The notes beneath the pieces are model-generated. The model had not been told where the DNA came from and did no database searches. It saw only the letters and a program-made list of their open reading frames with translations. Below are positions 34,777 through 61,165 of a stretch of DNA of 64,000 bases, piece after piece; positions within the stretch are counted from its first letter, which is position 1; every line of letters begins with the position of its first letter. A program made the translations under genes and the position numbers. The stretch is from a bacterium (GTDB lineage Bacteria; Bacteroidota; Ignavibacteria; Kapaibacteriales; UBA7675), in NCBI GenBank assembly GCA_030430495.1, contig JAUIKM010000005.1, forward strand, positions 1 to 64,000, read 5' to 3'.

Positions 34777-34852
34777 GTGTATTTAAACCGTTTTGTCGCC
34801 CGTTCTTGCACCTGCAAAAGCGGAGCCGGTGAGAAATCCCCGCGAGAATAGT

Positions 34853-35962: not shown

Positions 35963-37116
35963 AAACGCCGAACAAAACCAACACCGCGCAGCCGCCTCAC
36001 AACAGTCGACGCAACTTTGCGCGCGGCGCTCTGGCCGCCGCCGCACTCACGGGCGTCGGCATGTTTGCGCCGCGCCGCGCCCAGGCGCAGCCGAAGGGCG
36101 CACCGGAAGTGAAGTGGCGCATGGCCACGTCCTGGCCGACGAACTTCCCGATTTTTGAGCACGGCGCGCTGCGTTTTGCCGAGAACGTCGCTGCCATGTC
36201 CGGCGGCCGCATGCAGATCGAAGTCGACTCGGCCTCCAAACACAAAGCCGCCTTTGATGTTTTTGACTACGTGCGCGAGGGCCAGTTTGAGATGGGCCAC
36301 TCCTGTTCGTATTACTGGAAGGGCAAGGACGCTTCGCTCACGACGCTCTCGGCCATGCCGTTCGGCATGAACGCGCAGGAGTTCAACGCCTGGTTCTGGT
36401 ACGACGGCGGCATCGAGTTGATGAACGCCGCGTATGCGCGCCACGGCATGTATTCGTATAACGCCGGCAACACCGGCGTGCAGATGGGCGGTTGGTTCAG
36501 GAAGGAGATCAGAACGCTTGCGGACTTTCATGGACTGAAGATGCGCATCCCGGGGCTGGCGGGCGAAGTGCTGGCGCGCATCGGCGCAAACCCGGTCGTC
36601 ATTCCAGGCGGCGAACTCTACACCTCACTGGAGCGCGGCGTCATCGACGCGCTGGAGTGGGTCGGTCCGCACATGGACATCAGCATGGGTTTTCAGCAGA
36701 TTGCCAAATACTACTACACCGGTTGGCACGAGCCCGGCACGGAGCTGCAGTACCTGATCAACCGCGAAAAGTACGACGCTTTGCCGGAAGACCTGCGCCG
36801 CATTCTGCAGGTCGCCATGCGCGAAAGTTCGTTCGACATGTTGTGCGAGTCCGAGTACCGCAACGCAGAGACCTGGGCGCAGTTGCATCGCGACTACCCC
36901 GACGTGCAGATCCGCAGCTTCCCACGCGAAGTTCTGGACGCGCTGGACCGCGAAACCAACGCGGTCCTGGACGAGATGGTCGCCGCTTCACCGGACAGCG
37001 CAGCTATCATCGACAGCCAGCGCGCCTTCCTCAAGAAAGCGGCGGCCTGGACGGCTGTGAGTCGAGGGGATTTTTATCGGGTGCGGGAGTTGACGGGTGC
37101 TGATTTGATGGCTTGA
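35959..37116 (+). CDS. TRAP transporter solute-binding protein, copy 2
   Basis: A 385-residue paralogue of the preceding protein, sharing the same order of motifs (TGVQMGGWFRKEI, LKMRIPGLAGEVLAR, GVIDALEWVGPH, YYTGWHEPGTE). A twin-Arg signal lies at NSRRNFARGALAAAALTGVG. It lacks the lipobox Cys and has an AQAQ cleavage site instead, so it is probably soluble in the periplasm while copy 1 is anchored. The start codon overlaps the stop of copy 1 (ATGA), indicating coupling. The tandem pair suggests gene duplication; no permease genes are next to it. Confidence 0.9.
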   Translation: MKTPNKTNTAQPPHNSRRNFARGALAAAALTGVGMFAPRRAQAQPKGAPEVKWRMATSWPTNFPIFEHGALRFAENVAAMSGGRMQIEVDSASKHKAAFDVFDYVREGQFEMGHSCSYYWKGKDASLTTLSAMPFGMNAQEFNAWFWYDGGIELMNAAYARHGMYSYNAGNTGVQMGGWFRKEIRTLADFHGLKMRIPGLAGEVLARIGANPVVIPGGELYTSLERGVIDALEWVGPHMDISMGFQQIAKYYYTGWHEPGTELQYLINREKYDALPEDLRRILQVAMRESSFDMLCESEYRNAETWAQLHRDYPDVQIRSFPREVLDALDRETNAVLDEMVAASPDSAAIIDSQRAFLKKAAAWTAVSRGDFYRVRELTGADLMA

Positions 37117-37137
37117 AAAAGAGAGTCGCGGCATTTA

Positions 37138-37475
37138 ACATCCCGTTCAACACGAATTCCGGCCCGCTTGACCACGCTCTGTGGCACATGAATCGATTAG
37201 CGCTTGAAAACCGGCGATTGCTTTGTAGACTTGTGTTGTTGACTCGCGCACCGCGGATGTGCGGGTCGCATTGACCTTGACACAGGCGCAAAGCCGACTG
37301 GAATCTGCTGATTCCGGTCGGGAGGTAGGCCTGTGTGGTGGAGGATAACCAGACGTCGGAGGTGGTGGCTGGGGGCGGGCCCAACTTGATTTCACACAGG
37401 AGTCCGTCTTTCCCGCATGAACTTGAAACTCAACAACCAGCCAATATCCTCATCAGTTTTCACGCCGGCGACATC
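37138..37475 (+). repeat. 338-bp direct repeat, left copy
   Basis: Matches 53679-54016 at a constant offset of 16541 bases with no gaps and about nine differences; positions 37249-37413 are identical. Weaker similarity continues to about 37640. Open frames inside it (for example up to 117 codons on the minus strand) look like by-products: no known domain, and the same in both copies because the DNA is the same. Folding of the core is described in the findings. It begins about 20 bases after the second TRAP receptor gene and marks the left edge of the accessory block. Confidence 0.9.
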
Positions 37476-38111
37476 ACCCGCCCCTTGGTATCGCGAGCGC
37501 GCAAATATTTGCATAGTTCGAAGTATATCCAACATCTGCCAACCACATTCTGAGTTGAGCGACTGTAGCCCCATACAATACTAACGACTGCCTGCCAACC
37601 GGACTTGACGTTTCGGTTTTTGGGGGAAAGGCTACACCGCTGTCCAACTCCTCACCGGGGGACGACCAAAAAAGTCATAAAGCAAGCCGCGAACGCAGGT
37701 GAGAGGCGCTGCAATCAGCGGCATCCGATGCGCCACAGTGTTTCAAACCGACATTCTGCGCTTTCAAATCATGAGGAATAAAATGGTGCCTTGGTTTATG
37801 TTTACATACTCGCCATACTGTAAAAGAATAACTCAATTAACTTTGTATGGAGTTGTACAGATTCTTGAACTTGTGGTCACTGCTTGAAGGCTGATACGGC
37901 GTTCCACAAGCGCCATACTTGAGCACTACACCGGCATGCCGCTTTCCTGGCGATCCGATCTCGGGAAGAACACACTGCCCATCGCCTGCCTGACGCCGGT
38001 CCCACTATCCTGTTGGCATGTATTGAGAATCAACTATCGAAGCAGATACGGTTGACTCAAAATGACGCCGTTTCTGAACCCCACAAACAACAAGCATTTG
38101 GAGAAATTTCC
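37476..38111. other. Non-coding region between repeat and first lipoprotein
   Basis: No gene is supported. It holds the diverged tail of the repeat (to about 37640), one copy of the short dispersed element, and then A/T-richer sequence that leads to the lipoprotein start. Confidence 0.5.
37666..37710 (+). repeat. Short dispersed element, copy 2 (diverged)
   Basis: Carries the A-rich lead and AAGCAAGCCGC block but its second block is altered (GAGGCGCTGCA). It lies just after the left 338-bp repeat, as copy 3 lies after the right one. Confidence 0.45.
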
Positions 38112-39404
38112 ATGAATATCTATCTGTTGCAAGGGCTCTCGGAACCAAGGCGATCAAGAGACACGAAACGCCCTTTCGTGATCTGCGGATTGAGCTTGCT
38201 GTCACTGTTGGTGCTTGGAGCGTGTAGCGACAATTCGGCCGAAACCGACCTTGCGCCGCCTCCCTTGGTCGGGCCGCTCGGTCAGCTTGTGCAAACATTC
38301 GACGAGTTCAGGATTGCCTTTGAGCAAACGGCTCAAAGCATGGCGGCCGATCGCAGCTGGCTGACCGCGACGCTGCTTGAAGACATGCTTGAATCCGGCG
38401 TGGCAATGTCGCAGATTTCATCCAACTACATTGATGAAATCGAATTTGACAACACGACATTTGAAGCCAATCTGCAAATCTTCAATGCAAACAAAACGCA
38501 GAATCTGATTGACAACATTGCCACGGAAACATTCGGTATCATGATCGATCCCGATTTTTTCTACGTGCGCAGCGACGATGCGGAAACGGAGTATGACGTC
38601 CCCGTGTATTACAGCGATGGCCGGATAGGCAGCATTGAAGTGCCGGACGAAAGCGACAATATCGACTACAAGTCAATTCGGGACGGGCAACCGGTTCCCA
38701 TCCTGGTGCTCACGGGCGTCGAGCAGATGACGGCCGGGCAATGGAGTGCGGCGTACGACGAGCAATACAATCTCAATAAGGATGGTCTGCCGGGGGGCGG
38801 CGTGATTCTGTCGGGAGAGCTTGTGCCTTACGTAACCGCGATTCGAATTCGACTGAGCCACGAACACGACATCAGCGATGAAGAATTTGAGCTCTTTATG
38901 GGATCATTGGACGATCCGCTGCGGCGGACAACTATTCATATCTGGGATGGTGAAACCCGCAATGATGCCCGGCCCAACGGCCCCGCGGTGCGCTATAACG
39001 ATGTCAATCGCAGGCATATCTACAACATGGATGAAGAGGTTTATCTGGCCCGCATAGGCGGAATCGAAGGCGGAACGCGCCGCATCCTCTGCTTTGAAAA
39101 TGATGCTGAGCCGTCCGTCAACCGCTATAAAGACGGCGGCGACCACCATACGGTTCGCAATCGCGCCTACCGAATCCCGACCAACACGGTAACGGATCAG
39201 CAGTGGTGGCATATGGACACAAAAGAAGGAAAATGGTGGGGTGACGATGATGACCGCTATATGGAGTCGGGCGTGCAGGAAATCAATGAGGGAAACATGT
39301 TGCTCGCTCTTGATGTAAATCCCTTTGTAGACACCGAAAATGCGACGAATCATATTCTTGAAGACGTAAATTTCCGCCTCGGGATGAAGTATTGGCAAGA
39401 GTAG
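38112..39404 (+). CDS. Predicted lipoprotein, unknown family
   Basis: A 430-residue protein with a type II signal peptide: basic start, hydrophobic ICGLSLLSLLVLG and lipobox LGAC. The start ATG has GGAGA at about 8 bases; the frame is open 33 codons further up. The mature part is acidic with clusters of Asp, Asn and Trp (for example WWGDDDDRYME near the end) and no motif that I recognise. Base and codon use look more A/T-rich than the housekeeping genes. It is followed 66 bases later by a second lipoprotein and converges on the giant T9SS protein, which suggests a joint surface role. Confidence 0.7.
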   Translation: MNIYLLQGLSEPRRSRDTKRPFVICGLSLLSLLVLGACSDNSAETDLAPPPLVGPLGQLVQTFDEFRIAFEQTAQSMAADRSWLTATLLEDMLESGVAMSQISSNYIDEIEFDNTTFEANLQIFNANKTQNLIDNIATETFGIMIDPDFFYVRSDDAETEYDVPVYYSDGRIGSIEVPDESDNIDYKSIRDGQPVPILVLTGVEQMTAGQWSAAYDEQYNLNKDGLPGGGVILSGELVPYVTAIRIRLSHEHDISDEEFELFMGSLDDPLRRTTIHIWDGETRNDARPNGPAVRYNDVNRRHIYNMDEEVYLARIGGIEGGTRRILCFENDAEPSVNRYKDGGDHHTVRNRAYRIPTNTVTDQQWWHMDTKEGKWWGDDDDRYMESGVQEINEGNMLLALDVNPFVDTENATNHILEDVNFRLGMKYWQE

Positions 39405-39470
39405 AAAATCAGTGGATCTATTTGGACCGGAGGCGGGGCGAGTGGCGCTCCGCCTCTAAGGAGAATTGGC

Positions 39471-40394
39471 ATGAAGTTTCTAATATTGGTATTGACCATA
39501 ATGGCTGCAAGTGTAACAGGTTGTAGTGACGACCTTGCGGATTGCAGCGAATCCTTCCTTGGGCGGAACTATCATCATTTCATCGTCGGAATACTGACTC
39601 CGGATGATTTTCGAGACTACCCGCACGAAGTTTTTGTCGGCAGCATTCACTGCAGTAACACACATGCGCCGCCAACTCCACTGAGTGATGATGAACTCGT
39701 CAACCGCGTGCTGCTGACCATGCGCGCTAACTATCTTGCCGAGATTCGATCGCGCTCCGATGCCCAGGTATCGATCAGCGATGAGTTTGGAAATACTGTC
39801 GAACTCGTATACGTGGGCAATGGGTTTTACCGGGATGTCGAAAACAAACTGAAGGTTAAAGCGCTGAATAGCTACGAATTGAAGGTCGAATATGAGGGTG
39901 ATACATTTTGCAGTTCAACGACTGTGCCCGGTCCATTTGAAATTACAAATACATTCGAAAGTGATTCAGTCCGGTCATTTCTGTATCAGGTAGAGGGGTA
40001 TCCCGAGCCACATCCGTTTTGGCGGCTGGAACACACTGACAGTGAATCAGCTGCATTCTATCGATATGAAATATATAAAAGCTTACTTGGCTCCACGATC
40101 ATTACCAATAAATTTATAAACGAAGGGCTGTTGCTTGCCTATTTGTTTAACAATGATGTTAAGACGGTGGCTTCATCGGTACGTGTCGAAGCAGTGGACT
40201 CCAACTTTGCAAACATGTATCATTCCGGCGGCACATACACGGCTTCAATTGAATGGTTTGATTGGCATGATGAACAGACCAGAAAACCACTGCATGAGCG
40301 CAGCAATATTGAGGGGCCGGGCACTCCTGTCGGCGTCTTTGGATCGAGTCAGCAGGCGCCCAAGGTTAACTTTGTGGTATTGCCGCCGGAGTGA
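39471..40394 (+). CDS. Predicted lipoprotein, tentatively DUF4249-like
   Basis: A 307-residue lipoprotein: signal peptide LILVLTIMAASVTG with Cys18 at the lipobox. The middle (DAQVSISDEFGNTVEL, then GFYRD, LNSYELKVEYEG and TVPGPFEI) follows the strand order of Bacteroidota DUF4249 outer-membrane lipoproteins, a tentative match by eye. Its DNA is clearly more A/T-rich than flanking genes, consistent with separate ancestry. AAGGAG lies 8 bases before the ATG. It may be co-transcribed with the preceding lipoprotein. Function unknown. Confidence 0.65.
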   Translation: MKFLILVLTIMAASVTGCSDDLADCSESFLGRNYHHFIVGILTPDDFRDYPHEVFVGSIHCSNTHAPPTPLSDDELVNRVLLTMRANYLAEIRSRSDAQVSISDEFGNTVELVYVGNGFYRDVENKLKVKALNSYELKVEYEGDTFCSSTTVPGPFEITNTFESDSVRSFLYQVEGYPEPHPFWRLEHTDSESAAFYRYEIYKSLLGSTIITNKFINEGLLLAYLFNNDVKTVASSVRVEAVDSNFANMYHSGGTYTASIEWFDWHDEQTRKPLHERSNIEGPGTPVGVFGSSQQAPKVNFVVLPPE

Positions 40395-40461
40395 GTCACG
40401 GGGATTCCGACTCTGAAAGGGTATCGCAAGTGTCCGCGAAAAGAAACAACTCGCCTCAAAA

Positions 40462-40566
40462 CTACCGCCACACAAACCACATGAACGGTGCCGCCACCGA
40501 CTGCGTGAAAATTGCCATGCCCAAGTCTGCCGCGTTCTTTTTGGAATTGACCCGAAAGATACCCAG
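40462..40566 (-). pseudogene. Truncated copy of the 3' end of the gene at 54460-55392
   Basis: The minus strand encodes about 35 residues, ending AADLGMAIFTQSVAAPFMWFVW, that align with the C-terminus AADFGIAVFTQPAAAPFMSFVW of the intact gene beyond the right repeat. DNA similarity is also clear (about 40455-40530 against 54455-54540). Upstream of this piece the reading is unrelated, so it is a gene remnant. It lies between the second lipoprotein and the giant gene. Confidence 0.75.
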
Positions 40567-40649
40567 TCGGGCGCCTCGCTCCGAATGCCCGCTCAGAGTT
40601 TGCTCCTGGCGTTTTGTGCCAGACCGGTCAAAAACGTGCCTCAACATCC

Positions 40650-43600
40650 TCAGCGCACAATCACCAGCTTGCCGACCGCATGCCCACCGTCCTCAACTTC
40701 CAGCTCCACCACGTATACACCCGCCGCCAACCTGCGCCCGCTTTTGTCATGCAGGTCTACTTTAACTTTGTGCTTGCCGCCCGACAGCTCGCCGAGATCC
40801 AGCGATAGAATTTCAGCGCCGCGCATGTCTCTCAGGCGCAGCGTCGCCGGACCGGACTCCGAAATCTCAAAAGATACTTCGGTTTCAAAGCGCGCCGGAG
40901 TGGGTTGGAATTCCAGGTCGGAAGTGCTGTCGACAGTTGTTAACTCAATGCCTTGTTTGCCGTTTGTAACGTTTAACATAACAGTGGCCGTCGAGCTGCC
41001 GCCGTGACCGTCCGAGATCGAGTAGGTGAAGGAGTCAGCGCCCGTCGCAGCGCCTGCGGCATAGTCGAGCGTTGTTCCGCCGCCGGTGATAACTACCGTG
41101 CCCAGCGTGCCATTTGTTTTACTTGTAATTGTCAACGTATGGCCGTCGGCGTCGATGTCATTGAGCAGCGGTTTAATGACGAGTGTCGAATGTTTAAGCG
41201 CCGTGCCGGGCATGTCGTCATTAGCTTCGGGTGTTCGGTTGCGGAGAATAACAGTGAGAGCGTCGTCGCTATTCCCTGTGGCATAGGCAAAATCGCTGTG
41301 CGGGCTGAGAGCGCTCATCGTGACACCATTAAGCCCCTCAAAGCCGTCGACGCCGTCCTCGACCTGTTTAACAAAGTGTAATTCGCCGGCCGACTGATTG
41401 CGTTCGAACAGAACCACCGAATTGTCAAGTTGGCCGGCGGCCCAAACCTGCGAGCCATTTGGGCTGACAGCGACGCCATTCGCACCATTGAGTCCGTCTA
41501 TGCTGCCGGAGCCGTCGAGATACACATCCACAAAACTTAAACTTCCACTTGTGGCGGAACGGCTGAAGGCCGCGATGGCATTATCGCCATAAGCGGCGGC
41601 GTACACGTGTTTGCCGTCCGGACTGACGGCGACATCTGTGACAGCATTCAAGCCATTGGTACCGGCATTATTGTCTTTGACTTGTCCGACAAATGTTAAG
41701 TGACCTGTTTCCAGATCGTGTTTGAAAATTGCGATAGCGTCGTTGCCCGAGCCGGCGACATAAAGATGTTTGCCGTCCAGGCTGAAGGTTAGCCCGAGTG
41801 CCTGCTTCAAGCCAAGCACGTCACCAATGCCGTTTTTGTGAAACTCGTGAAAGATCAGCCCTCCGGTCGCCAGGTTGTATCGGAACACCGCAATGGAATG
41901 GTCGCCGTATCCCGTCGCCACGACCGTCCGACCATCCGGACTGACAGCGCAGCCACGTGGTCGTTTCATGCCGTTAATTGTCTGTGCGCCGTCGGTATCT
42001 CCTTTGCGTTTGCGTTCGACAAATGTCAATTCGCCGGTGTGTGTATTTCTTACGAAGACAACAAGGGCATTTTGTGCGTATCCGGCGGCATAGAGGTGCG
42101 TGCCATCCGGACTGATGGCCACGTCGCTGACGTATTTAAGCCCGGTGACGCCATTGTGCCCGTGCCGCACGCGGCTCTGGTATGTTAAGGTGCCATTTGT
42201 TGTATTGCGTTCGAAGATGGCTATTGAATGGTCGTTGCGGCCCGCCACGTAGATAAACTTCCCGTCCGGGCTGATTGCCGCGCTGATCGCCGCCTGCAAT
42301 CCGCGAACGCCATTGGCGCGATCTTGCTGTACTTCAACAAATTCCAGATTGACGTTTGCGTTGACGTCTCCGGGAGAAATGGCGACGATTGAACCTGTCA
42401 CGGCACAGCCTTCGGGCGTTTGGGCGGTATAGGAGAAGTACTCGACGCCTGCAAATCCGGGGTCGGGCGTGTACGTGACTGTCGAAGCGCTCGTCACGAC
42501 CGAGCCGCTGGCGGGGTCTTCAACAGCGGTAATAAACAAATTGTCACCCAGGTCATTGGCGATCACGTTGCTTGTGCCGTTACTGCCTTCCACGTAGATA
42601 TAATCCATCAGTGCAAGCGCCTCGGCCGGCGTTGCAACGAATTGCGTCGCACGCGTGCATCCCGAGGGCGCCGTGCGCAGCAGGTCGATTGTAGCAGTGC
42701 TCGGGGCGTTTTCCCAAATAACTTGTATGCTGCCGGTACCTTGTCCGCCGGCGATCACACCGCCTTCGACTTCCCAAAAATGTGCCGCGTCCGGATCAAC
42801 GGGCAGGGCCGTGTATGGAGTCGCGAATCCAGGGCAGGCGCGTGAAGCACCTGTTATTGACAATGGGTCAATTGCCTGCACTGTTAAACAAACTTCGGTT
42901 GCGCGTTCAAACTCGCCGTCCGACACGACGAGTGTGACGATGGCTGGGCCGGTTACGCCGCATTCGGGCGTCATGGTCACTTCGATAGTCGCGGCGGTTG
43001 TTCCAAACTCAATATTATTGTTAACCAACAGCGCCGGATTGCCCGAAGTGGCGCGCAGGATCAGGCTGCTGAACGGCGTGTCGCGGTCAAAGAGCGCAAT
43101 GTTTATCGTTGTTGCCACATCCTCGTGGGTGTATGCTTTTAGGCTGTTGGCCGTGATTGCCGGTGGGTCGTTGACCGCTGATACGTTCAACGTGAGCCTG
43201 GTCGAACGCACATACTCTCCGTCATCGGCGTAGACTGTGATTTCCGTCAGGCCATTGGCGTTGGTCGCCGGGTCGTAAAACAGACTTGTCGTTGCTCCGG
43301 TTGCGCCAATGACTATGCGGTTGTTCGGCAAGACTGATTTAACACTTGATGTTGCGCTCAGGATTACATGGCTCAACGGCGTGTCAAGGTCCAGCAGTTG
43401 GAACGTTGTCGACCCGGGCGTGTCTTCGTTGGTCGTGATGGCCGTGTTTGACGTCGACACCACGGGCGGATCATTAACGGGATTGACGGTCAGGTTGATC
43501 GATGTCGAGCGCGTGAATTCTCCATCGTCCACCGTCACGGTAATAAACACATTGCCGTTGGCATTCGCCACAGGGTTAATAAACAAACCTGTTGTTGCGC

Positions 43601-46600
43601 CCGTGGCGCCAAAGCTGATTCCGGCGTTGCTTACGATTGCTACATCGCTGGAAGTTGCCGTGAGGATCAGATTGTTGAACCCGGTGTCAACGTCGGCAAG
43701 ACTGACAATCGTTGAAGCTGCATTGTCTTCATTTGTTGTAATCGTGCTTTGATCGGCTTGTACTGTCGGCGGGTCGTTAACGGGATTGACGGTCAGGTTA
43801 AACGATGTCGAGCGCGTAAACTCGCCGTCGTCTGCCGTTACGGCAATTTGCACATTGCCGTTGGCATTTGAGACCGGATCGACAAACAAGGTGGTCGATG
43901 CTCCCGTAGCGCCAAAAGTGATTCCGGCGTTGCTTACGATTGCCACATCGCTGGAAGTTGCCGTGAGGATCAGATTGTTAAACCCGGTGTCGATGTCGGC
44001 AAGATTGACAGTTGTTGAAGTTGCATTGTCTTCATCTGTTGTAATCGTGCTTTGATCGGCTTGTACTGTCGGCGGGTCATTGACCGGACTGACGATCAGG
44101 TTAAACGATGTCGAGCGCGTGAACTCGCCGTCGTCTACGGTGACGGTAATAAGCGCATTGCCGTTGGTGTTTGAGGCCGGATCGACAAACAAGGTGGTCG
44201 ATGCGCCCGTAGCGCCAAAGCTGATTCCGGCGTTGCTTACGATTGCCACATCGCTGGAAGTTGCCGTGAGGATCAGATTGTTGAACCCGGTGTCAATGTC
44301 GGCAAGACTGATGGTCGTTGAAGTTGCATTGTCTTCATCTGTTGTAATCGTGCTTTGATCGGCTTGTACTGTCGGCGGGTCATTGACCGGAATGACGATC
44401 AGATTAAACGATGTCGAGCGCGTGAACTCGCCGTCGTCCACGGTGACGGTAATTTGCACGTTTCCGTTGGTATTTGAGACCGGATCGACAAACAAGGAGG
44501 TCGTTGCCCCGGTAGCGCCAAAAGTGAGGCCGCCATTGGTTGCGATGGATTGGTCGCTGGAAGTTGCCGTGAGGATCAGATTGTTAAACCCGGTGTCGAT
44601 GTCGGCAAGACTGATGGTCGTTGAAGTTGTATTGTCTTCGTTTGTTGTAATCGCATTCTGATCGGCCTGCACAGTCGAAGGATCGTTGACCGGATTAATT
44701 GTAAGTGTGAAACTTGTTGAACTGTTTAACTCACCGTCGCTGACGGTGAATTCAAGCGGAACGGAGCCATTGGCGTTGCTGACGGGCGTTACGAGGAATT
44801 TGGTTGTAGCATCTGTTGCGCCAATCTGTGTGATTGACGCAATGGTTGCCAGATCAGCCGTTGGCGGTGTAACAACGAGACCTGCGATTCCCGGCCAGAC
44901 GTCCGCCAAAGCGACAGTGAGGTTTATCGCTTGATCTTCGTTGAAGTTAATGAGCGTTTGGCTGGTGGAAATTTGCGGTGTGTCGTTTAATACAGTGATG
45001 CTTGTACTCGTCGACCCGGAGGGGTTGGTGACTGTCAGTGTTAATGTGCCCGCCGTTGAAACGGCGCCGGCCGGCAGGATCGCGCTGAAACCGAAGAAGT
45101 CCGATGCAAAGAGCGAGAGACTGCGATTGCCATTTGTTGTACCGTTGGCATCAAGTGTTGTAACCTGCGCACTGGTATTCACAAAGTGTTCGCCTGTTAC
45201 CGTGAGCCGCATTGCGCTCAGACTTGCCGTCGTGCTGGTCGGTACTATGGATGAAATGGTCGGTGTCTGTGGTATGTTAAACCAGATTTCCTGCGCCTCG
45301 CCACCGAAGTTGCCAACAATGGCGTCAAGATCTCCGTCACCGTCGAGGTCTCCCATTGCCACGGCGCGGCTGCCGCCCGCGCCAAAGGTGGAAGGGGAGA
45401 ACGTACCATCGCCATTGTTTATCCAAATGTCTTGTGCCTCATCACTGTTATTGGCAACGATCACATCAAGGTCGTTATCGCCGTCGATATCGCCCAGGGC
45501 CAGGCCATAGCTTGTACCGCTGCCCAATGTCGCCGTCGCAAAAGTGGCATCGCCGTTATTAAACAAAATATCCTGTGCACTGAGCCGATTGGCGAAGACC
45601 GCATCGAGGTCGCCGTCACCGTCGAGGTCGCCCAATTCTACACCGAGAGCGGAACCACCGCTGGAGCTGGAGGTGGCGAAGCTGCCGTCGCCATTGTTAA
45701 GCCAGAGGTATCTGCGTACGTAGTAATCATCCTCGATCAGGGCGTCGAGATCGCCGTCACCATCGAGATCGCCAATGGCCACGGTACTGCCTTCATGCGC
45801 TATGTTCGTGCTGTTGAAACTGCCGTCGCCATTGTTAAACCAGATTTCCATGTGGCCGCTGCCGCTGTTGGCCATGATGACATCGAGGTCGCCGTCGCCG
45901 TCGAGGTCGCCGGTTGCCAGGTCGTGGCCGCTGCCCGCGCCAAAACTGGAGCTTGTGAAAACGGCATTGCCGTTGTTTAACCAGATTTCCTGGGCGCTGC
46001 CATTGCTGTTGCCAACAATGGCATCGAGATCACCATCGCCGTCCAAATCGCCGAGGACCACGCTGAAAGAATTTCCTGACCCGAAGGTCGTTGAGGTAAA
46101 GCTGCCATCGCCATTATTGATCCAAATGTCCTGCGGTTCATTTGAGGTATTTGCCATAATGGCGTCAAGATCACCGTCGCCGTCGAGGTCGCCTACGGCA
46201 ATGCCGCGGCTGTTTCCGGCGCCAAAACTATTGGAACTGAACACGCCGCTGCCGCCGTAGACCTCTGCGCGGAACTGGTGCACGCGCGGTCCGGCGATGA
46301 CATCCCCGAGCGTTGAAGCCGCGTTGGTAATGCTGAGCGAAATGAGCTCGCCCGGTTGAAAATGCGTCAGGGGATCGATTGTCACGGTCGCATCGCCATT
46401 GCTGTAGCTGATACTCGCCTTTGTGGTAATGTGGCCTGTCTGATTGCCATAGACAATCAGATTGGCATGTGTCGGTACGTCATCAGCCACAAGTGTCGCA
46501 GTGCTCATGGGCTGGTTAAACGCGATCTCGATGTTGGAATCGCGTGCGGCGGCGGTGGCGTTGGTCGTCGGATTTATCGCTGTGATGCGCGGCTGTAATT

Positions 46601-49600
46601 GGTTGAACCAGATATGCTGCGGGCCGGAGTCGTTGGCGATTATGGCGTCGAGGTCCCCGTCGCCGTCGAGGTCGCCCAATGCAATGCCGTTACTTTCACC
46701 ATTGCCAAATTCGCTGCTCGTAAACGTGCCGTCGCCATTGTTAATCCAGATTTCCTGGGCCTGGTCGTTGTCATTGGCGATAATCGCATCGAGATCACCA
46801 TCGCCGTCGAGATCGCCCAGTGCCAGATCTCTGGAAAATCCGCTTCCAAATGTCGCGGTAGAGAATGTGGCATCGCCATTGTTGAGCCAAATTTCCTGCG
46901 CACCGATGCGCCTGGCTACAATGGCGTCGAGGTCTCCGTCGCCGTCGAGGTCGCCCAGGGCAACGCTTTCAGTCGTTCCGCCGCTTGAGCTCGAGCTCAC
47001 AAAGCTGCCGTCGCCGTTGTTGAGCCACAAATAGATTTTGCCGTAGTACTCATCGCCAAGCAGGGCGTCGAGGTCTCCGTCGCCGTCGAGGTCGCCCAGA
47101 GCAATGGCGTTTGTGTCATCGCCGAACCCGACGCTGTTAAATGTTGCATCGCCATTGTTAAACCAGATCTCCGGTGTGATGGCTCCGCTGCTTACGACGA
47201 TGACATCCAGGTCTCCGTCGCCGTCAATATCGCCCATGGCGAGGTCATTGCCATTTCCGGCGCCAAGTGTCGACGTTGTGAATGTTGCATCGCCGTTGTT
47301 AATCCAGATATCTTGTGCCTGACTGCCACCGTTGGAGATAACCGCGTCGAGATCGCCGTCACCGTCGAGGTCGCCCATTTTAACGTTATGTGAACTTCCC
47401 GCACCAAAAGTGGACGTCGCAAAGCTGCCGTCGCCATTGTTAAGCCAGATTTCCTGGGCGCTGTTAAGTGAGGAGGCAATGATTGCGTCGAGATCGCCGT
47501 CGCCGTCGAGGTCGCCAATCGCTACTTCGGCGTCACGACCATCGCCGAGTTTGTTAACACTGAAGTCGGCGAAACCGCCATCAACCGCCGCACGGAAGCC
47601 ATAAACTTTGTATGGCGTGTAAAACAAACCCGACCTGGTCGTTGCGCCCGTGATCGTGACCCACACTTCCTCGCCGGCCTGGAAATCCTGTGCCGGGTCA
47701 ATGATGACCGTTTTGTTGTTGGACGTGTAGCTGATGGCCGCAGCCGCCGAGACATGTCCCGTCTGCATGGCGTGGACAATCAAATTTGCGTGTGTCGGTA
47801 CGGTTGCCGTGGTGAGTGTGCCGGTGTCCATGATCTGGTTAAAGGAGATCCGAATACCTGCGTCGCGCACCGCCGTATTGGCGTTTGTGCCGGGAACAAG
47901 GTTCGCGATTTTTGGATCTACCTCGTTAAGCGCCACGCGCTCCTTGCCATTGCGGGAGATGATGACGTCCAGGTTGCCGTTGTCATCGAGATCTCCGAGC
48001 GCGAGGTCATAGTTGACGCCGCCGCCTAAAGTGTTGCTGGTGAGAAAGGTGGCGTCGCCGTTGTTGAGCCAGACCTGGTTGTCGCCGAAACTCACAAAGA
48101 CGGCGTCGAGGTCGCCGTCGCCGTCCATGTCGCCGAGAGCCACGCCTTTGCAGTCGCCGCCGCCGCTGGAAGATGTTGTGAACGTGCCGCTGCCGTCGTT
48201 GATGCCGATGATGTTCCCGTCCGATCGCGCCAGAGTGAGGTCGAGGTCGCCATCGCCGTCCAGATCGCCGAGAGCCACGCCGCTGCTCGTCCCGACGCCG
48301 AAGCCGGTGCTGGAGAAGCCGCCGCGACCATTGTTGAACCAGATGTGATCCGCCGCATTGCGGTTGGCGAAAACGGCGTCGAGATCGCCGTCGCCGTCCA
48401 GATCGCCGATGGCGACAGCCAGGCTTTCGCCTGCGCCAAAGGTGTCGCCGGCGAAGGTCATGTCGCCGTTGTTGAGCCAGATCTCATTCGGATATGAATC
48501 GTCATTTGCTATCAGCAGATCCAGATCGCCATCGCCGTCGAGGTCGCCCACAGCAAGGTCTTCGCTTGCAATGCTGTTGGCGCCATAGGCGCTGCTGGCA
48601 AAAGTTGCGTCGCCATTGTTGAGCCAGATTGCCGGCGGCTCGCCGTCGCGCACAAAAACGGCGTCGAGGTCGCCGTCGTTGTCGAGATCGCCAAGGGCGA
48701 CGCCGTGCATGTTGCCGCTGCCGAAAGTTTGAATAGCGAATGTACCGTCGCCGTTGTTGAGCCAGATGTGGCTGTCGTTGTCGGTGTTGGCGACAATCGC
48801 GTCAATATCGCCGTCGCCGTCGAGGTCGCCCATGGCTACGTCGTTGCTGGTAGCGCCGCCGCTTGTATATGCGTTAAAATCGACTTTGCCTTGCAGTGTT
48901 TTAGTCACGAAGGAATAGACAAAGGGATCGTCGATTGGCCGGCCGACAGGCGACTCTGCTCCGAAGATCGATACGGATACTTTTTCTCCGAACTTGAATG
49001 CCTTGCCCGGCGTGAAAATGCGCGTCGGATTGCCGCTGAATACACCAAACTGCGAAAGGTAGCCGGTTTGTGAGCCATGGATGGAAATGTTGGCGGCGGT
49101 CAGCGTCGACGCGTTCATCGCTATGTTGAATTCGATGTCAATTGTCGATGAGGCCGGCGCTGCATTGGCGTTTGTCGCCGGCGACAGGGACACAATCGTC
49201 GGCAAAGGGCCGGGGTAGTTCAGCGCCACGCGCTCCTTGCCGTTGCGGGAAATGATGACATCCAGGTTGCCGTTTCCGTCCAGATCGCCAAGCGCGAGGC
49301 CATAGTTGACGCCACCGCCCAATTTGTTGCTGGTGAGAAAGGTTGCGTTGCCGTTGTTAAGCCAGACCTGGTTGTCGCCGAAACTCACGAAGACGGCGTC
49401 GAGGTCGCCGTCGCCGTCCATGTCGCCGATTGCCACGCCCTTGCAGTCGCCGCCGCCGATTGAGGATGTCGCGAAGCCGCCGCTGCCGTCGTTGACGGCG
49501 ATGATGTTCCCGTCCGATCGCGCCAGAAGCAGATCGAGGCTGCCGTCGCCGTCGAGATCGCCAAGAGCCGCGCCGCTGCTCGTCCCGCCTCCGAAACCGG

Positions 49601-50747
49601 TGCTGGTGAAGGTGCCGTCGCCATTGTTGAACCAGATGTGATCCGAAGCGCTGCGGTTGGCGAAAACGGCATCGAGGTCGCCGTCGCCATCCAGATCGCC
49701 GATGGCGACAGCCAGGCTTCTCTGTGTGCCAAATGTCGCGCTTGCAAAGGTGGCGTCGCCGTTGTTAAACCAAATCTCGTTCGGGTTTGTATCATCGTTT
49801 GCTACCAGCGCATCCAGGTCGCCATCGCCGTCAAGGTCGCCAATGGCAATGTCGGAACTTGCATTGGTGGCTGAACCATGGGCGCTGCTGACAAAACTCG
49901 CATCGCCGTTGTTAAGCCAGATAGCCAAAGGTTCACTGTCGCGCGCAAAAATGGCATCGAGGTCGCCGTCGTTGTCGAGATCGCCAAGCACGACTCCCTG
50001 CATATTGCCGCTGCCGAAGGTCTGAACGTCGAACGTGCCGTCGCCATTGTTAAGCCAGATGTGGCTGTCGTTGTCGGTGTTGGCTACGATCGCATCTATA
50101 TCGCCATCGCCGTCGAGGTCGCCCGTCGCGACGTCGTTACTGGTTGCTCCGCCCGTCGTATATGCGTCAAAGTCGGCTTCACCTTCCAGCGCTTCCGCCA
50201 CGAAGGAATACACGGTGGGATTATTTATCGGCGTACCGCCTGAGGACTCGGCCTCGAATATTGATACGGAGATTGTCTCGCCGACTTTAAACGCGCTGTT
50301 CGGTGTGAAAATTCGCGTTGGATTGCCGCTGAATACTCCGTTCCGGGAGAGAAATCCCGTTTGTGAGCCATAGATGGAGATGTTGGCGGCGGTCAGCGTC
50401 GATGTGTCCATCGGAACACTGATTTCGATTGAGATATTCGATCCGCTTGCGATGTTAAACGCGTTGGTGGTAGGCGACAAGGACGTGATAGTTGGTGTCT
50501 GTGCATTCAAATTCGAAAGGGATGTGAATGACATTGTGGCGACGCCGGCGAGCAAGGCTGCAAGTCGTGGATTGTTACACGGATTGAGAATCCCAATCAG
50601 TTTGTTAATTCGCTTTTGCAGCCAGCCAATTTTGCGGCGCGTATCGGACTGGCCGTCGACTTGCGTGCAGCAGCGCAACAATCGACGCTGGTATTTGTGC
50701 AGTTGCTGAAGTGGAGAGCTTGTTCGTTTAAATGTAGTACGTCGCAT
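40650..50747 (-). CDS. Giant T9SS-secreted multi-propeller surface protein
   Basis: A 3365-residue secreted protein. Order from the N-terminus: a basic stretch of about 60 residues then a hydrophobic signal (LAALLAGVATMSF, cleavage near NAQ at 83); an Ig-like (SbsA-type) domain; seven FG-GAP/VCBS repeats (GDLDGDGDLDAI type, EF-hand-like Ca2+ loops); this Ig-plus-seven unit occurs four times (to about residue 1820); an IPT/TIG-like domain; eight repeats of about 101 residues linked by VNDPP (about 1920-2625); PKD-like and cadherin-like domains; a lactonase-type propeller with seven SPDG repeats (about 2796-3173); a further cadherin-like domain; and a C-terminal T9SS sorting domain (AAGVYVVELEVEDGG, KLVIVR). 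It probably acts as a Ca2+-stabilised adhesin or carbohydrate binder. ATG 50747 has GAAGG 7 bases upstream; a start at 50792 is possible. Confidence 0.9.
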   Translation of the reverse strand: MRRTTFKRTSSPLQQLHKYQRRLLRCCTQVDGQSDTRRKIGWLQKRINKLIGILNPCNNPRLAALLAGVATMSFTSLSNLNAQTPTITSLSPTTNAFNIASGSNISIEISVPMDTSTLTAANISIYGSQTGFLSRNGVFSGNPTRIFTPNSAFKVGETISVSIFEAESSGGTPINNPTVYSFVAEALEGEADFDAYTTGGATSNDVATGDLDGDGDIDAIVANTDNDSHIWLNNGDGTFDVQTFGSGNMQGVVLGDLDNDGDLDAIFARDSEPLAIWLNNGDASFVSSAHGSATNASSDIAIGDLDGDGDLDALVANDDTNPNEIWFNNGDATFASATFGTQRSLAVAIGDLDGDGDLDAVFANRSASDHIWFNNGDGTFTSTGFGGGTSSGAALGDLDGDGSLDLLLARSDGNIIAVNDGSGGFATSSIGGGDCKGVAIGDMDGDGDLDAVFVSFGDNQVWLNNGNATFLTSNKLGGGVNYGLALGDLDGNGNLDVIISRNGKERVALNYPGPLPTIVSLSPATNANAAPASSTIDIEFNIAMNASTLTAANISIHGSQTGYLSQFGVFSGNPTRIFTPGKAFKFGEKVSVSIFGAESPVGRPIDDPFVYSFVTKTLQGKVDFNAYTSGGATSNDVAMGDLDGDGDIDAIVANTDNDSHIWLNNGDGTFAIQTFGSGNMHGVALGDLDNDGDLDAVFVRDGEPPAIWLNNGDATFASSAYGANSIASEDLAVGDLDGDGDLDLLIANDDSYPNEIWLNNGDMTFAGDTFGAGESLAVAIGDLDGDGDLDAVFANRNAADHIWFNNGRGGFSSTGFGVGTSSGVALGDLDGDGDLDLTLARSDGNIIGINDGSGTFTTSSSGGGDCKGVALGDMDGDGDLDAVFVSFGDNQVWLNNGDATFLTSNTLGGGVNYDLALGDLDDNGNLDVIISRNGKERVALNEVDPKIANLVPGTNANTAVRDAGIRISFNQIMDTGTLTTATVPTHANLIVHAMQTGHVSAAAAISYTSNNKTVIIDPAQDFQAGEEVWVTITGATTRSGLFYTPYKVYGFRAAVDGGFADFSVNKLGDGRDAEVAIGDLDGDGDLDAIIASSLNSAQEIWLNNGDGSFATSTFGAGSSHNVKMGDLDGDGDLDAVISNGGSQAQDIWINNGDATFTTSTLGAGNGNDLAMGDIDGDGDLDVIVVSSGAITPEIWFNNGDATFNSVGFGDDTNAIALGDLDGDGDLDALLGDEYYGKIYLWLNNGDGSFVSSSSSGGTTESVALGDLDGDGDLDAIVARRIGAQEIWLNNGDATFSTATFGSGFSRDLALGDLDGDGDLDAIIANDNDQAQEIWINNGDGTFTSSEFGNGESNGIALGDLDGDGDLDAIIANDSGPQHIWFNQLQPRITAINPTTNATAAARDSNIEIAFNQPMSTATLVADDVPTHANLIVYGNQTGHITTKASISYSNGDATVTIDPLTHFQPGELISLSITNAASTLGDVIAGPRVHQFRAEVYGGSGVFSSNSFGAGNSRGIAVGDLDGDGDLDAIMANTSNEPQDIWINNGDGSFTSTTFGSGNSFSVVLGDLDGDGDLDAIVGNSNGSAQEIWLNNGNAVFTSSSFGAGSGHDLATGDLDGDGDLDVIMANSGSGHMEIWFNNGDGSFNSTNIAHEGSTVAIGDLDGDGDLDALIEDDYYVRRYLWLNNGDGSFATSSSSGGSALGVELGDLDGDGDLDAVFANRLSAQDILFNNGDATFATATLGSGTSYGLALGDIDGDNDLDVIVANNSDEAQDIWINNGDGTFSPSTFGAGGSRAVAMGDLDGDGDLDAIVGNFGGEAQEIWFNIPQTPTISSIVPTSTTASLSAMRLTVTGEHFVNTSAQVTTLDANGTTNGNRSLSLFASDFFGFSAILPAGAVSTAGTLTLTVTNPSGSTSTSITVLNDTPQISTSQTLINFNEDQAINLTVALADVWPGIAGLVVTPPTADLATIASITQIGATDATTKFLVTPVSNANGSVPLEFTVSDGELNSSTSFTLTINPVNDPSTVQADQNAITTNEDNTTSTTISLADIDTGFNNLILTATSSDQSIATNGGLTFGATGATTSLFVDPVSNTNGNVQITVTVDDGEFTRSTSFNLIVIPVNDPPTVQADQSTITTDEDNATSTTISLADIDTGFNNLILTATSSDVAIVSNAGISFGATGASTTLFVDPASNTNGNALITVTVDDGEFTRSTSFNLIVSPVNDPPTVQADQSTITTDEDNATSTTVNLADIDTGFNNLILTATSSDVAIVSNAGITFGATGASTTLFVDPVSNANGNVQIAVTADDGEFTRSTSFNLTVNPVNDPPTVQADQSTITTNEDNAASTIVSLADVDTGFNNLILTATSSDVAIVSNAGISFGATGATTGLFINPVANANGNVFITVTVDDGEFTRSTSINLTVNPVNDPPVVSTSNTAITTNEDTPGSTTFQLLDLDTPLSHVILSATSSVKSVLPNNRIVIGATGATTSLFYDPATNANGLTEITVYADDGEYVRSTRLTLNVSAVNDPPAITANSLKAYTHEDVATTINIALFDRDTPFSSLILRATSGNPALLVNNNIEFGTTAATIEVTMTPECGVTGPAIVTLVVSDGEFERATEVCLTVQAIDPLSITGASRACPGFATPYTALPVDPDAAHFWEVEGGVIAGGQGTGSIQVIWENAPSTATIDLLRTAPSGCTRATQFVATPAEALALMDYIYVEGSNGTSNVIANDLGDNLFITAVEDPASGSVVTSASTVTYTPDPGFAGVEYFSYTAQTPEGCAVTGSIVAISPGDVNANVNLEFVEVQQDRANGVRGLQAAISAAISPDGKFIYVAGRNDHSIAIFERNTTNGTLTYQSRVRHGHNGVTGLKYVSDVAISPDGTHLYAAGYAQNALVVFVRNTHTGELTFVERKRKGDTDGAQTINGMKRPRGCAVSPDGRTVVATGYGDHSIAVFRYNLATGGLIFHEFHKNGIGDVLGLKQALGLTFSLDGKHLYVAGSGNDAIAIFKHDLETGHLTFVGQVKDNNAGTNGLNAVTDVAVSPDGKHVYAAAYGDNAIAAFSRSATSGSLSFVDVYLDGSGSIDGLNGANGVAVSPNGSQVWAAGQLDNSVVLFERNQSAGELHFVKQVEDGVDGFEGLNGVTMSALSPHSDFAYATGNSDDALTVILRNRTPEANDDMPGTALKHSTLVIKPLLNDIDADGHTLTITSKTNGTLGTVVITGGGTTLDYAAGAATGADSFTYSISDGHGGSSTATVMLNVTNGKQGIELTTVDSTSDLEFQPTPARFETEVSFEISESGPATLRLRDMRGAEILSLDLGELSGGKHKVKVDLHDKSGRRLAAGVYVVELEVEDGGHAVGKLVIVR
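43150..44990 (-). repeat. Tandem VNDPP-linked repeats inside the giant gene
   Basis: Unit of about 303 bases (101 residues). Seven VNDP linkers separate eight units. Units at about 43770-44680 are nearly identical in DNA, including synonymous sites, so they arose by recent duplication or are kept alike by recombination. They encode cadherin/Ig-like strands with the segments VDDGEFTRSTSFNL and TNEDN. Confidence 0.85.
45285..50165 (-). repeat. FG-GAP/VCBS repeat array inside the giant gene
   Basis: Twenty-eight copies of a motif of about 44 residues, in four groups of seven separated by Ig-like domains at about 48890-49215, 47560-47925 and 46260-46600. Groups 1 and 2 are offset by about 1294 bases and are more alike, including their preceding Ig domains. 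Groups 3 and 4 form the second similar pair. The DNA carries many copies of a GTCGCCGTCGAGGTC-like string. Confidence 0.85.
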
Positions 50748-51377
50748 TGTTCGACCTTCGCAAATACATACGTCGTTCCTGGAAAAGGACATCCCTTTTG
50801 GTTGTCATGTAGTTAACAACGGACTGTAAAACAGCAGGTGCAAAATCAACTGTCTCTCGATTGCCGGTTTAAAAGTCGACCAGCCCGATGAATGGCTGCG
50901 ACTATGAATCAGAGGTGAGTCGAGAAATCAAGCATAGGGTTGGCGCGAAACGAACGTTAATTAATGCGACAGACCGCTGAGGTCAGAACGTTTGCCGGAA
51001 GTTCAGACTCATTTGCGAGTCTGTCGCATTGATTCAAAGTGCTTGCAGGCGCCAACCTGGTCCGGTGTTTCAATTCACACCGCAGCAGTTGAACTCGACA
51101 CGATTGATTGCAAATACAAGAGCAGTTGGTTCGGCCAGCGGTACGAGGCATGGCACCGAAGCCGCAGCTCAACTGCCCTCCGTATACGGCAGGCAAGATA
51201 GGTGGCGTCAAGTGCAACATTCACACAGCAAAACCACGCAATGCGTGTTGCTGTCGCTCCAGCGTGGTGTCGCTGTCGCTCGCCGTAGCGGCATAATGCA
51301 TCCGGGCCGTATGATTTGTTCGCTGGTTGGAAACGAGCAACGAGTTGATGAGGAGATGTGAGTCCGGAGCGCTGGTG
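50748..51377. other. Long leader between the TPR-LuxR gene and the giant gene
   Basis: About 630 bases without a supported gene, on the upstream side of the giant gene. It contains a perfect 12-bp inverted repeat (50963-50974 / 51019-51030) and, overlapping its right arm, a 6-bp hairpin (51005-51010 / 51017-51022). Small open frames here have no motif. The giant gene's promoter is expected in this stretch. Confidence 0.5.
50963..51030. promoter_or_regulatory. Inverted repeat upstream of the giant gene
   Basis: Arms of 12 perfectly paired bases around a 44-base spacer, about 215 bases upstream of the giant gene's start. A smaller hairpin shares four bases of the right arm, so the two folds exclude each other. 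It could be an operator for the neighbouring regulator or a leader switch. Confidence 0.4.
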
Positions 51378-53447
51378 TTACTGGCTGTGGGCGAGTCTGG
51401 CGATGACGGCGTTGAGGTCTGCGCCCGCTTCGAGATCAAATTTTTTGCGGATGCGGTAGCGGTACGATTCAATCGAACGAGGCGTGACGTTCAGAAGGCG
51501 GGCGATGTCCTTGTTCGCTACATTGGAGCCAATGAGCGCGCAGACTTTGCGTTCCGTAGCGGTCAATTGAGGGTACTCGTCTGCGAGCCGGGCCAGTATT
51601 CCGTGGTCGAGTGGGATGAGCACCGTATCGGGGCCGTCGCTCTCGAAATCATTCAGTCGCTCGGCCACAAGCTGCCCGGCTTTCTTTTGCCGTTCCAGGA
51701 GCGCAGCGTGATCTGTTGTTTTCTCACGAAGCAGTTGGTGCAACTCGCGAAAAATGTGCTCATCGCGTTCGAGTTGTGCGCCGGTGACCTGCAGAGTATC
51801 GCTTGCAGACTGCTTTTCCTTTGTCAGCTGTTCGAGTTGGATCTGCAGTGCTGCATTGTCCTGTCGCAGAATGTGCGTGTCGTGTTCAGAAATAAGCTGC
51901 TCCAGTCGTAGCATCTGTCGCTTTTTTTCGGCATCCCTTTCATACTGCAGCATAGATCGCAGGTGTTCCAGTGCTTTGGCGTGGTTGCCGGCGGATTCGT
52001 GGGAATCGGCAAGCAGTCCGTGCATTGAGCGGAGCAGTTTTACTTGCAGGCCGTCCTGCAGTTTTTCGATGCCTTCATTGAGCAGGTCGATTGCCGTTGC
52101 GAAATCTCCCCGACGACAGTGGAATGTTCCCAGATTGAGGAAACACTCCGCTTGCGTTTTGCGACTGCCGTGTTCGGACGCAAGGGCGAGCGCTTGTCGG
52201 ACAGAGGTCACTGCGGCGTCAAAATCACCCCGGGCAAAGTAAAGGTCGCCAAGTGCATTGTAGAGCAGGATACGTGAATTCAGGCTGTATTGAAAGGCTC
52301 CGACGCGCAAGATTTTGTCGATATACTCACGGAGTGCGTCGAGATCGCAGCATTCCGGACAATGGCGTACCAGATTCGAAATCGCAAATACCACCTTTAC
52401 GCTTGTGCCGCATTGCGGCAGCAATAGAGCGCAGCGCTGGAAGTAGTCCCGCTGCGCAACGCGATCGCCAGATTCCTTGGCAATGAACCCGAGGCTGGCC
52501 AGGCAGATCGCCATGCCGTCTTTATCGCCTGCCGTCTCGAAGAGTTTGAAGGACATATTGAATTGCTCTAGAGCCAGATCGTAGCGGTCGTAGCCTTTGT
52601 GAAATTCTCCTGCAGAATAGCGGAGGTCGGCTTCCTGCCAGGTATTGTCAAGTTGTTTGGCGACTGCGATGGCTTCGTTATTCAGACTGAAAGCTTCGGA
52701 TACTTTACCCGCCAGATAGTAATTCAAACTTGCCAGTCTGAGGGTATGCACGAGTTCTGAATGGTGTCCAATATGACGAAGGATCGAAAGGGCTTCGCGC
52801 AGATTTTGATCTGCCATCTGCGTATCGCCGGTGCTGTAGTAATAATATCCCAGGCTCGCCAGAGCGGTGGCCCGACGTGAGTCCGGTTCGGGGGTGAGTT
52901 TGACGGCACGCTGAAAGCATGTTTTTGCCCCGTCCCAGTCTTTTACTATCAGCAGAGTATCGCCTTTGGACTTGTACAGCAAGGGCAGAGCTTCGCGTAG
53001 ATTGCTGTTCTCGCCGCAGTTAATGCCGAGATTGAGGTATTTGATCGCCTTGTCGTGTTTGTTCTGCTGATTATAGGTCGCCGAAATAAGTTGGACACAT
53101 TCCAGAAATTCCGGCCATTTGGCGAGCTCTTCGTAGAGGGTGAGCGCTTCCTGCAGAACACTTTCCGCCTGAGGAAGTTGATGGTTCTGTTTCAGACTGG
53201 CGCCTTGTGCGTGGAGGCAGCGAGCCAGCCCTTCGCGATACGCGCGGTCGACGGAGCCTCTTTCCTGCGCTTTGGCAAGGAGGCGACGCGCCTGGGCAAC
53301 GGCATCAGCTGCCAGTTCCGTGCCTTCTTTGACGGATTTCAGATAGGTGAGGGCTTCAACCAATTCGGCTTTGGCTGCCAGATTTCGAAGGCCATGGGTA
53401 TAGTGCACCTTCTTGCGCAGCCTGGCAATATGGTCGGTAGAATGCAT
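51378..53447 (-). CDS. TPR-containing LuxR/GerE-type regulator
   Basis: A 689-residue cytosolic regulator. Residues about 100-480 are a tandem of tetratricopeptide repeats (for example LASLGYYYYSTGDTQMADQNLREAL, NLGTFHCRRGDFATAIDLLNEG). A coiled coil rich in Gln, Glu and Leu follows (about 490-600). The C-terminus is a LuxR-type helix-turn-helix with LTATERKVCALIGSNVANKDIARLLNVTPRSIESYRYRIRKKF. There is no signal peptide, membrane helix or receiver domain. Bacteroidota have related TPR-LuxR proteins, usually membrane-bound. It lies upstream of the giant gene in the same direction and is its likely regulator. Confidence 0.85.
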   Translation of the reverse strand: MHSTDHIARLRKKVHYTHGLRNLAAKAELVEALTYLKSVKEGTELAADAVAQARRLLAKAQERGSVDRAYREGLARCLHAQGASLKQNHQLPQAESVLQEALTLYEELAKWPEFLECVQLISATYNQQNKHDKAIKYLNLGINCGENSNLREALPLLYKSKGDTLLIVKDWDGAKTCFQRAVKLTPEPDSRRATALASLGYYYYSTGDTQMADQNLREALSILRHIGHHSELVHTLRLASLNYYLAGKVSEAFSLNNEAIAVAKQLDNTWQEADLRYSAGEFHKGYDRYDLALEQFNMSFKLFETAGDKDGMAICLASLGFIAKESGDRVAQRDYFQRCALLLPQCGTSVKVVFAISNLVRHCPECCDLDALREYIDKILRVGAFQYSLNSRILLYNALGDLYFARGDFDAAVTSVRQALALASEHGSRKTQAECFLNLGTFHCRRGDFATAIDLLNEGIEKLQDGLQVKLLRSMHGLLADSHESAGNHAKALEHLRSMLQYERDAEKKRQMLRLEQLISEHDTHILRQDNAALQIQLEQLTKEKQSASDTLQVTGAQLERDEHIFRELHQLLREKTTDHAALLERQKKAGQLVAERLNDFESDGPDTVLIPLDHGILARLADEYPQLTATERKVCALIGSNVANKDIARLLNVTPRSIESYRYRIRKKFDLEAGADLNAVIARLAHSQ

Positions 53448-53678
53448 AGCCGCGAGTCTCTCAGCTTATGTCGGAAATATGGAAGATAAGGACGGGAATC
53501 ACCGCGATCAGCTTGTAGACAATTGCGGTAGTGGTTCGCGTCGCACGCTGAAGCGGCATGATGCATCATGCTTGTACGCTGCGCTCATGGTTCGGGGGCG
53601 CTACCTACCGAACCGAGGAATCGGAAAGTGCCTGCGCGACTCACTCTCCGGACAACATCAATCCAACTTTCCCACCTG

Positions 53679-54016
53679 ACATCCCGTTCAACACGAATTC
53701 CGGCCCGCTTGACCACGCCCTGTGGCACATGAATCGATTAGCGCTTGAAAACCGGAGATTGCTTTGTAGACTTGTGTTGTTGACTCGCACACCGCGGATG
53801 TGCGGGTCGCATTGACCTTGACACAGGCGCAAAGCCGACTGGAATCTGCTGATTCCGGTCGGGAGGTAGGCCTGTGTGGTGGAGGATAACCAGACGTCGG
53901 AGGTGGTGGCTGGGGGCGGGCCCAACTTGATTTCACACAGGAGTCCGTCTTTCCGACATGAACTTGAAACTCAACAACCAGCGAATATCCTCATCAACTT
54001 TCACCCCGGCGACATC
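53679..54016 (+). repeat. 338-bp direct repeat, right copy
   Basis: Gap-free match to 37138-37475 with about nine differences. One difference changes a G-T pair in a predicted 10-bp hairpin to A-T, so the stem is kept; another falls in a small hairpin loop. The edges show no transposase, integrase or tRNA, and no terminal inverted repeat is evident. It marks the right edge of the accessory block. Confidence 0.9.
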
Positions 54017-54359
54017 TACCCGACCCGCAGTATCGCATGCGCGCATAATTTTGTGTACATCGAATTGCAATCAACGTCCGCCAACTGCATTCAGCACTGA
54101 ATTATTGCAGCCCCATTTAATGCCAACGACTGCTTGCATCCTGAACTTGACGTCCTGATTCTGGGAAAAGCCCCACACCGCGTGCAGTTGAAGTCTCAGG
54201 TTCTTGCCGAATGAGTGTTTTGTTTAACTTGTGAAGTAGAAAACGGATGCCGGGCACAAATACGTGGCGAAGAAGTACGGAGCAATGTGCCGCGTTCTCA
54301 GGAATGAGAATTGCGCCCAAAGACGCATTCTTTGATTGAGCTCTTCAAACCCGATGATG

Positions 54360-54402
54360 AACAAAAAGAAAAAGCAAGCCGCCGCAGGAGGCGAAGCGCT
54401 CA
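54360..54402 (+). repeat. Short dispersed element, copy 3
   Basis: A-rich lead, AAGCAAGCCGCC and then GGCGAAGCGCTCA with the shortest spacer of the four copies. A tiny open frame (MNKKKKQAAAGGEALRSQK, from 54357) runs through it, but the frame is not kept in other copies. Confidence 0.6.
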
Positions 54403-54459
54403 GGAGTCAGAAATAAACGGGTGAGTTAACAATCCCAAAAAGGTCACGCTCAAGTCGTG

Positions 54460-60797: not shown

Positions 60798-61165
60798 GTT
60801 TTTACTTCTCACCCGGCGCTGTGGGCTTGAGCGCTTCGCCTCCGGCGTTTCACTTGGCGGCTTGCTTTTTCCTCTTGTTAGTCGGCGTGGGGAAAATCGA
60901 CCGTCGGCGGGTTGGGAGTCCGAACAGCCGCAGACCTGTACCGCCTGCCGCCGCGCCGTCCTGCGCTTTTGCCGCCGGGATGCGGTCCTGCGGTGCCGGC
61001 GTCATTTGGAGATATCCGCCTCAACCGGCAGATTGGCGGCGTACCACGCTTGTTGCAGGCCGAACATTAATACTGAAAGCGCACGCGGAGTCTGTCAAAT
61101 TTCACTTCGGGGCGTCCGCCGGCCCGAAGTACCGATTTCTGTCGCTTGAAGGTGCGGAGCAAACA
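60798..61165. other. Gap between prfB and the kinase-like gene
   Basis: The kinase-like gene's frame is open through this stretch, but its residues are low in motif content and include an inverted copy of the short dispersed element, so I read it as non-coding. No other structure is evident. Confidence 0.45.
60828..60879 (-). repeat. Short dispersed element, copy 4 (inverted)
   Basis: Read on the minus strand it has the A-rich lead, AAGCAAGCCGCC, a spacer of about 20 bases and GGCGAAGCGCTCA. It lies just after the prfB terminator. Confidence 0.6.

Follow-up and report, generated by a model that had tools for sequence, protein, structure and literature searches.

A probable lineage-specific insertion at a conserved gene junction of a Kapaibacteriales genome, bracketed by duplicated pieces of the site

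Introduction

Integrase-less spots of accessory genes, with recombination at the flanking core genes, have been described before (2017, PMC5635113). The locus described here resembles these spots in that accessory genes are lodged between conserved neighbours, no mobility gene is recognised, and the flanks are kept in relatives. It is contained in a stretch of 64,000 nucleotides (hereafter the window, that is, the whole stretch of DNA that was analysed), which is part of contig C71 in a draft genome of 5.6 Mb and 80 contigs. The locus provides a readable case, from an uncultured lineage, of a block of cell-surface genes entering a conserved junction without a recognisable mobile-element enzyme, and the duplicated fragments of the site record the likely steps of the insertion.

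Results and Discussion

The DctP2-X junction and its empty counterpart in relatives

The block is flanked by the following genes:

34793-37116, plus strand: DctP1 and DctP2, tandem TRAP-type solute-binding proteins of family 7 (PF03480, E-values 3.7e-51 and 2.5e-58), the left flank
54460-55392, minus strand: gene X, the right flank, which adjoins RlmN and ClpC (the order in relatives is X-RlmN-ClpC-PrfB)

Gene X (310 aa) occurs in 59 of the 61 genomes of the order and is frequently located close to RlmN, the named carriers being metagenome assemblies of Candidatus Kapaibacterium and Ignavibacteria. With no match in either Pfam or NCBIfam, it is a conserved protein without an assigned function. 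In the genome analysed here, 17.3 kb (37117-54459) separate DctP2 from X. By contrast, the two genes are convergent neighbours in both family-level relatives, with 7 bp between the stops in G002 (JANQRB010000125.1, a Candidatus Kapaibacterium MAG) and about 60 bp in G001 (JAUHYX010000029.1). In both, the gene order is AspAT-wzy-DctP1-DctP2, followed on the opposite strand by X-RlmN-ClpC-PrfB, with DctP1 and DctP2 placed next to X in the same order as here; among the other named relatives listed from the order, no match shows DctP adjoining X. The DctP-type paralogues (34793-37116) are 72% identical at the DNA level over 650 bp and form a tandem in both family relatives as well.

The initial annotation described an accessory block between unrelated neighbours, and the empty site in G001 and G002 bears this out. 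The uninterrupted DctP2-X site in two related genera argues most strongly for an insertion, and the comparison of gene orders supports the view that an accessory block specific to this lineage was inserted at a conserved junction. An ancestral block that was lost from G001 and G002 appears improbable: genes of the block do exist elsewhere in G002, but the same tight junction in two genera would require two clean losses, and the duplicated fragment of X described below marks the present arrangement as derived. Given that the empty-site comparison covers two family relatives from other genera, both of them metagenome assemblies, with one genome per species, loss in these relatives instead of gain here is, strictly speaking, still conceivable.

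Gene content of the block

The block encodes four proteins of note:

38013-39404, plus strand: LipA, a 463-aa lipoprotein-like protein, family not assigned, with a relative in G002 (contig C74)
39471-40394, plus strand: LipB, a 307-aa lipoprotein-like protein, family not assigned, which adjoins LipA in G002 as well
40650-50792, minus strand: giant 3380-aa protein with FG-GAP, Big_9 and lactonase-propeller domains (domain search) and a C-terminal T9SS-like tail
51378-53447, minus strand: TPR-LuxR regulator with a GerE domain, directly upstream of the giant gene; same gene order in G002 (contig C102)

The two lipoprotein-like genes, the 3380-aa repeat protein and the TPR-LuxR protein are thus all present as initially annotated. 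LipA and LipB have no match in Pfam or NCBIfam. The giant gene, which had been described as a T9SS cargo, does encode a giant repeat protein, but its T9SS sorting domain falls below the threshold (TIGR04183, 17.8 bits against a cut-off of 23). The lipoprotein genes are richer in A/T, as had been proposed, with a GC3 of 0.49-0.61 (LipB/LipA) compared to 0.72-0.80 in adjoining genes, and the GC content of the block is 54.7% versus 57.1% in the rest of the window. Likewise in agreement with the initial annotation, the window contains no tRNA, and domain screens of the block proteins detect no integrase, transposase or other mobility family; a mobile element degraded beyond recognition may be present at the block.

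In G002, the genes of the block are found as two separate pairs, LipA-LipB (C74) and TPR-LuxR-giant (C102). Because these pairs sit apart, the block is best described as a composite of two modules. The TPR-LuxR regulators are a strongly expanded family in this bacterial family; at E <= 1e-20, there are 31 matches of this type in G002 and 8 in the genome analysed here.

The flanking repeats and their uneven divergence

Each end of the block carries a direct repeat that consists of a near-identical part and a diverged tail:

37138-37475, plus strand: R1, near-identical part of the left repeat (329 of 338 positions shared with R2), found whole or in part in 6 places of the genome
37476-37646, plus strand: diverged tail of the left repeat, about 70% identical to 54017-54186
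53679-54016, plus strand: R2, near-identical part of the right repeat (329 of 338 positions shared with R1)
54017-54186, plus strand: diverged tail of the right repeat, delineated by gapped alignment and a change-point test

The ungapped comparison of R1 and R2 recovers exactly the figures given initially, with 329 of 338 matching positions and a longest identical run of 165. In a gapped alignment, the similarity extends to 37138-37646 and 53679-54186, with a sharp left edge and a fading right edge, and the match of the tails scores 120 compared to 43 at most in 200 shuffles. As had been claimed, the outer flank is therefore unrelated to the left of R1, but not so directly behind R2, where a similarity persists for about 170 bp. 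Inside this single collinear repeat, the identity falls abruptly from 98% to about 70%, with 6 differences in 318 columns before the best change-point and 58 in 192 columns after it (log-likelihood ratio of 45, against a maximum of 9.9 in 1000 permutations). Judging from the alignment, the abrupt change suggests a later homogenisation of R1 and R2.

Several other interpretations of the repeat were considered and rejected. A diversity-generating pair of template and variable repeats was dropped because the differences between R1 and R2 are not restricted to A positions; no conserved open frame of note points to a coding region; and a fixed RNA gene is disfavoured by the folding of the complete 338-bp sequence, which scores no better than shuffled sequences (z = -0.77), although the core alone does. 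An Rfam scan of R1 and its surroundings yields just sub-threshold chance matches, and the repeat is absent from the plasmid and phage collections searched. The conserved left part of the repeat could alternatively be under selection as an RNA or another functional element.

The window also contains short repeats of other kinds, one of which lies next to the left tail:

37655-37718, plus strand: short dispersed repeat, unrelated to R, with 16 other matches in the genome

This repeat reads AACAAAAAAGTCATAAAGCAAGCCGC...GGCGCTGCAATC and is possibly terminator- or REP-like. A further short repeat, AAGCAAGCCGC...GGCGAAGCGCTCA, occurs at 24375-24427, 54360-54402 and 60824-60879 and is possibly related to the one at 37655.

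A second duplicated piece of the site

The block also contains a copy of the end of gene X:

40382-40534, minus strand: X', a truncated, decayed copy of the 3' end of X with about 84 bp of downstream DNA, identified by protein and DNA matches to the local X
54378-54538, minus strand: intact 3' end of X with downstream DNA, the counterpart of the X' duplicate (DNA alignment)

A search started with gene X identifies a short match inside the block (40459-40557) with 55% identity to the last 33 residues of the protein (X 278-310). The DNA alignment of 40382-40534 with 54378-54538, which corresponds to the 3' end of X plus 84 bp, scores 98 compared to 38 at most in shuffles; the fragment contains an in-frame stop. 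X' is 71% identical to the local X over 114 nt (score 82), whereas its scores against the X genes of relatives are 7-10. Being far closer to the local gene, X' points to a duplication that arose inside the lineage or came from a close relative. The left side reads R1-tail-LipA-LipB-X' and the right side R2-tail-X, such that the giant-TPR pair is bracketed by two collinear copies of one site region. Two collinear copies of the target region (R-tail and the 3' end of X) on either side of an insert are a feature of Campbell-type integration or tandem duplication. The initial annotation, in which the mode of entry was left unclear, missed this larger, two-part duplication, which supplies a plausible mode.

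The duplicated X fragment bears on two further explanations. An assembly artefact, in which the block was misjoined at the repeats, is highly improbable: an exact repeat of 165 bp in an 80-contig draft can mislead short-read assemblers, but R1 and R2 differ at 9 sites and in the diverged tail, and X' ties the block to the locus independently of R. It is also improbable that the block descends from an integrase-based genomic island or plasmid and has since lost its mobility genes, with R1 and R2 as old duplications of the attachment site. A 17-kb insert of lower GC content with direct repeats at its ends would fit such an origin; however, R1 and R2 are much longer than attachment cores, the duplication takes in part of a protein gene, an interior X' is not expected, and neither a tRNA in the window nor a mobility domain among the screened block proteins accompanies it.

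The dispersed core of the repeat

Beyond its two flanking positions, the 338-bp repeat is found only in part:

37278-37407, plus strand: core of R1 (repeat positions 141-270), an intergenic repeat that is dispersed in the genome and forms a strong hairpin; the copies on contigs C61, C43 and C9 match it at 87-89% identity

A genome search identifies other copies of this core of about 130 bp at C61:51191, C43:66205 and C9:23337 and a fragment at C61:41876, which, with R1 and R2 counted, makes five copies and one fragment; the initial annotation had missed that the repeat is not unique in this respect. The core is thus dispersed within its own genome but was not found in any of the 60 relatives searched, and an exact core 23-mer has no match in public genome and viral contigs, a collection from which the window's own record was possibly excluded. 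In the copies on C61, C43 and C9, the similarity to R is confined to the core with short flanks and takes in neither the left 140 bp nor the tail. The folded core copies have a strong hairpin in common (z from -1.8 to -3.5), and in an alignment judged by eye, neither terminal inverted repeats nor target duplications stand out clearly at the core copies. On sequence grounds, the core looks like a dispersed intergenic repeat and not like a dedicated recombination site.

The locus on C61 (L038, 5877-15320) contains two same-strand core pieces 9.3 kb apart, with a MoxR-ATPase/multi-gene operon between them; the partial core directly adjoins a truncated TPR-regulator N-terminus, and beyond the full core there is a giant secreted-protein homologue. 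In G002, the MoxR operon and a DinB-like gene are on separate contigs, such that a second inserted block on C61 is only suggested.

These copies raise the possibility, which we consider unlikely, that the core belongs to the small mobile or structured repeats of MITE or REP type and inserted here twice, the block having grown or been captured between the copies through recombination of dispersed repeats. The dispersal of the core (two places on C61, C43 and C9), the shared hairpin, the position of the C9 copy at a contig end, and the arrangement on C61, with a fragment next to a truncated TPR regulator and a second core in the same orientation around the MoxR/propeller operon, are compatible with this scenario. 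However, the homology of R1 and R2 far exceeds the core and takes in X', indicating that DNA of the whole site was duplicated rather than the element alone, and the hallmarks of transposition sought at the core copies are not clearly seen. Even less probable is a transposase-free cassette system, in which the core would be a recombination-prone element of the lineage that repeatedly joins or brackets cell-surface modules (TPR regulators and giant secreted proteins); if such a system exists, the C61 locus would be its second case.

A proposed course of events

The most probable interpretation, and one in which we place reasonable confidence, is that two modules (LipA-LipB, and TPR-LuxR to giant) were inserted, specifically in this lineage, between the convergent DctP2 and X genes by ordinary recombination. 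The structure DctP2, R1-LipAB-X', giant-TPR, R2-X fits single-crossover homologous recombination or tandem duplication, and the presence of LipAB in the left copy only calls for one or more extra events. The site copies around the giant-TPR pair, the empty site in relatives and the uneven divergence are all observed; the following steps are inferred. The giant-TPR module would have entered by single-crossover (Campbell-type) integration of donor DNA with homology to R, the tail and the 3' end of X, mediated by host recombination, or by an equivalent tandem duplication. LipAB, located inside the left copy of the site, was perhaps added there by a separate or linked event. Gene conversion or crossing-over would later have rendered R1 and R2 near identical over roughly their leading 320 bp, leaving a divergence of about 30% in the tails and in X'. 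A deletion of 16,541 bp could still arise by RecA-type recombination of R1 with R2, and the near identity of the repeats predicts a 16.5-kb deletion variant.

Comparison with known systems

The locus differs from the hotspots described previously (PMC5635113) in that it is a single occupied site in one genome, where the duplicated piece of the site records the event. The bracketing of the insert by two collinear site copies is shared with Campbell-type integration or tandem duplication, but the left copy contains the additional LipA-LipB pair, the divergence of the copies is uneven, and no circular donor is known. The core, about 130 bp long with several intergenic copies and a strong hairpin, resembles REP and MITE-like repeats; unlike them, it is present in very few copies (five and one fragment), was not found in 60 relatives, and has no cognate transposase identified. 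An integrase-based genomic island is distinguished by the features that the window and the screened block proteins lack, namely a tRNA and an integrase domain, respectively. The insertion is ordinary in kind; it is also real and lineage-specific, and its anatomy is informative.
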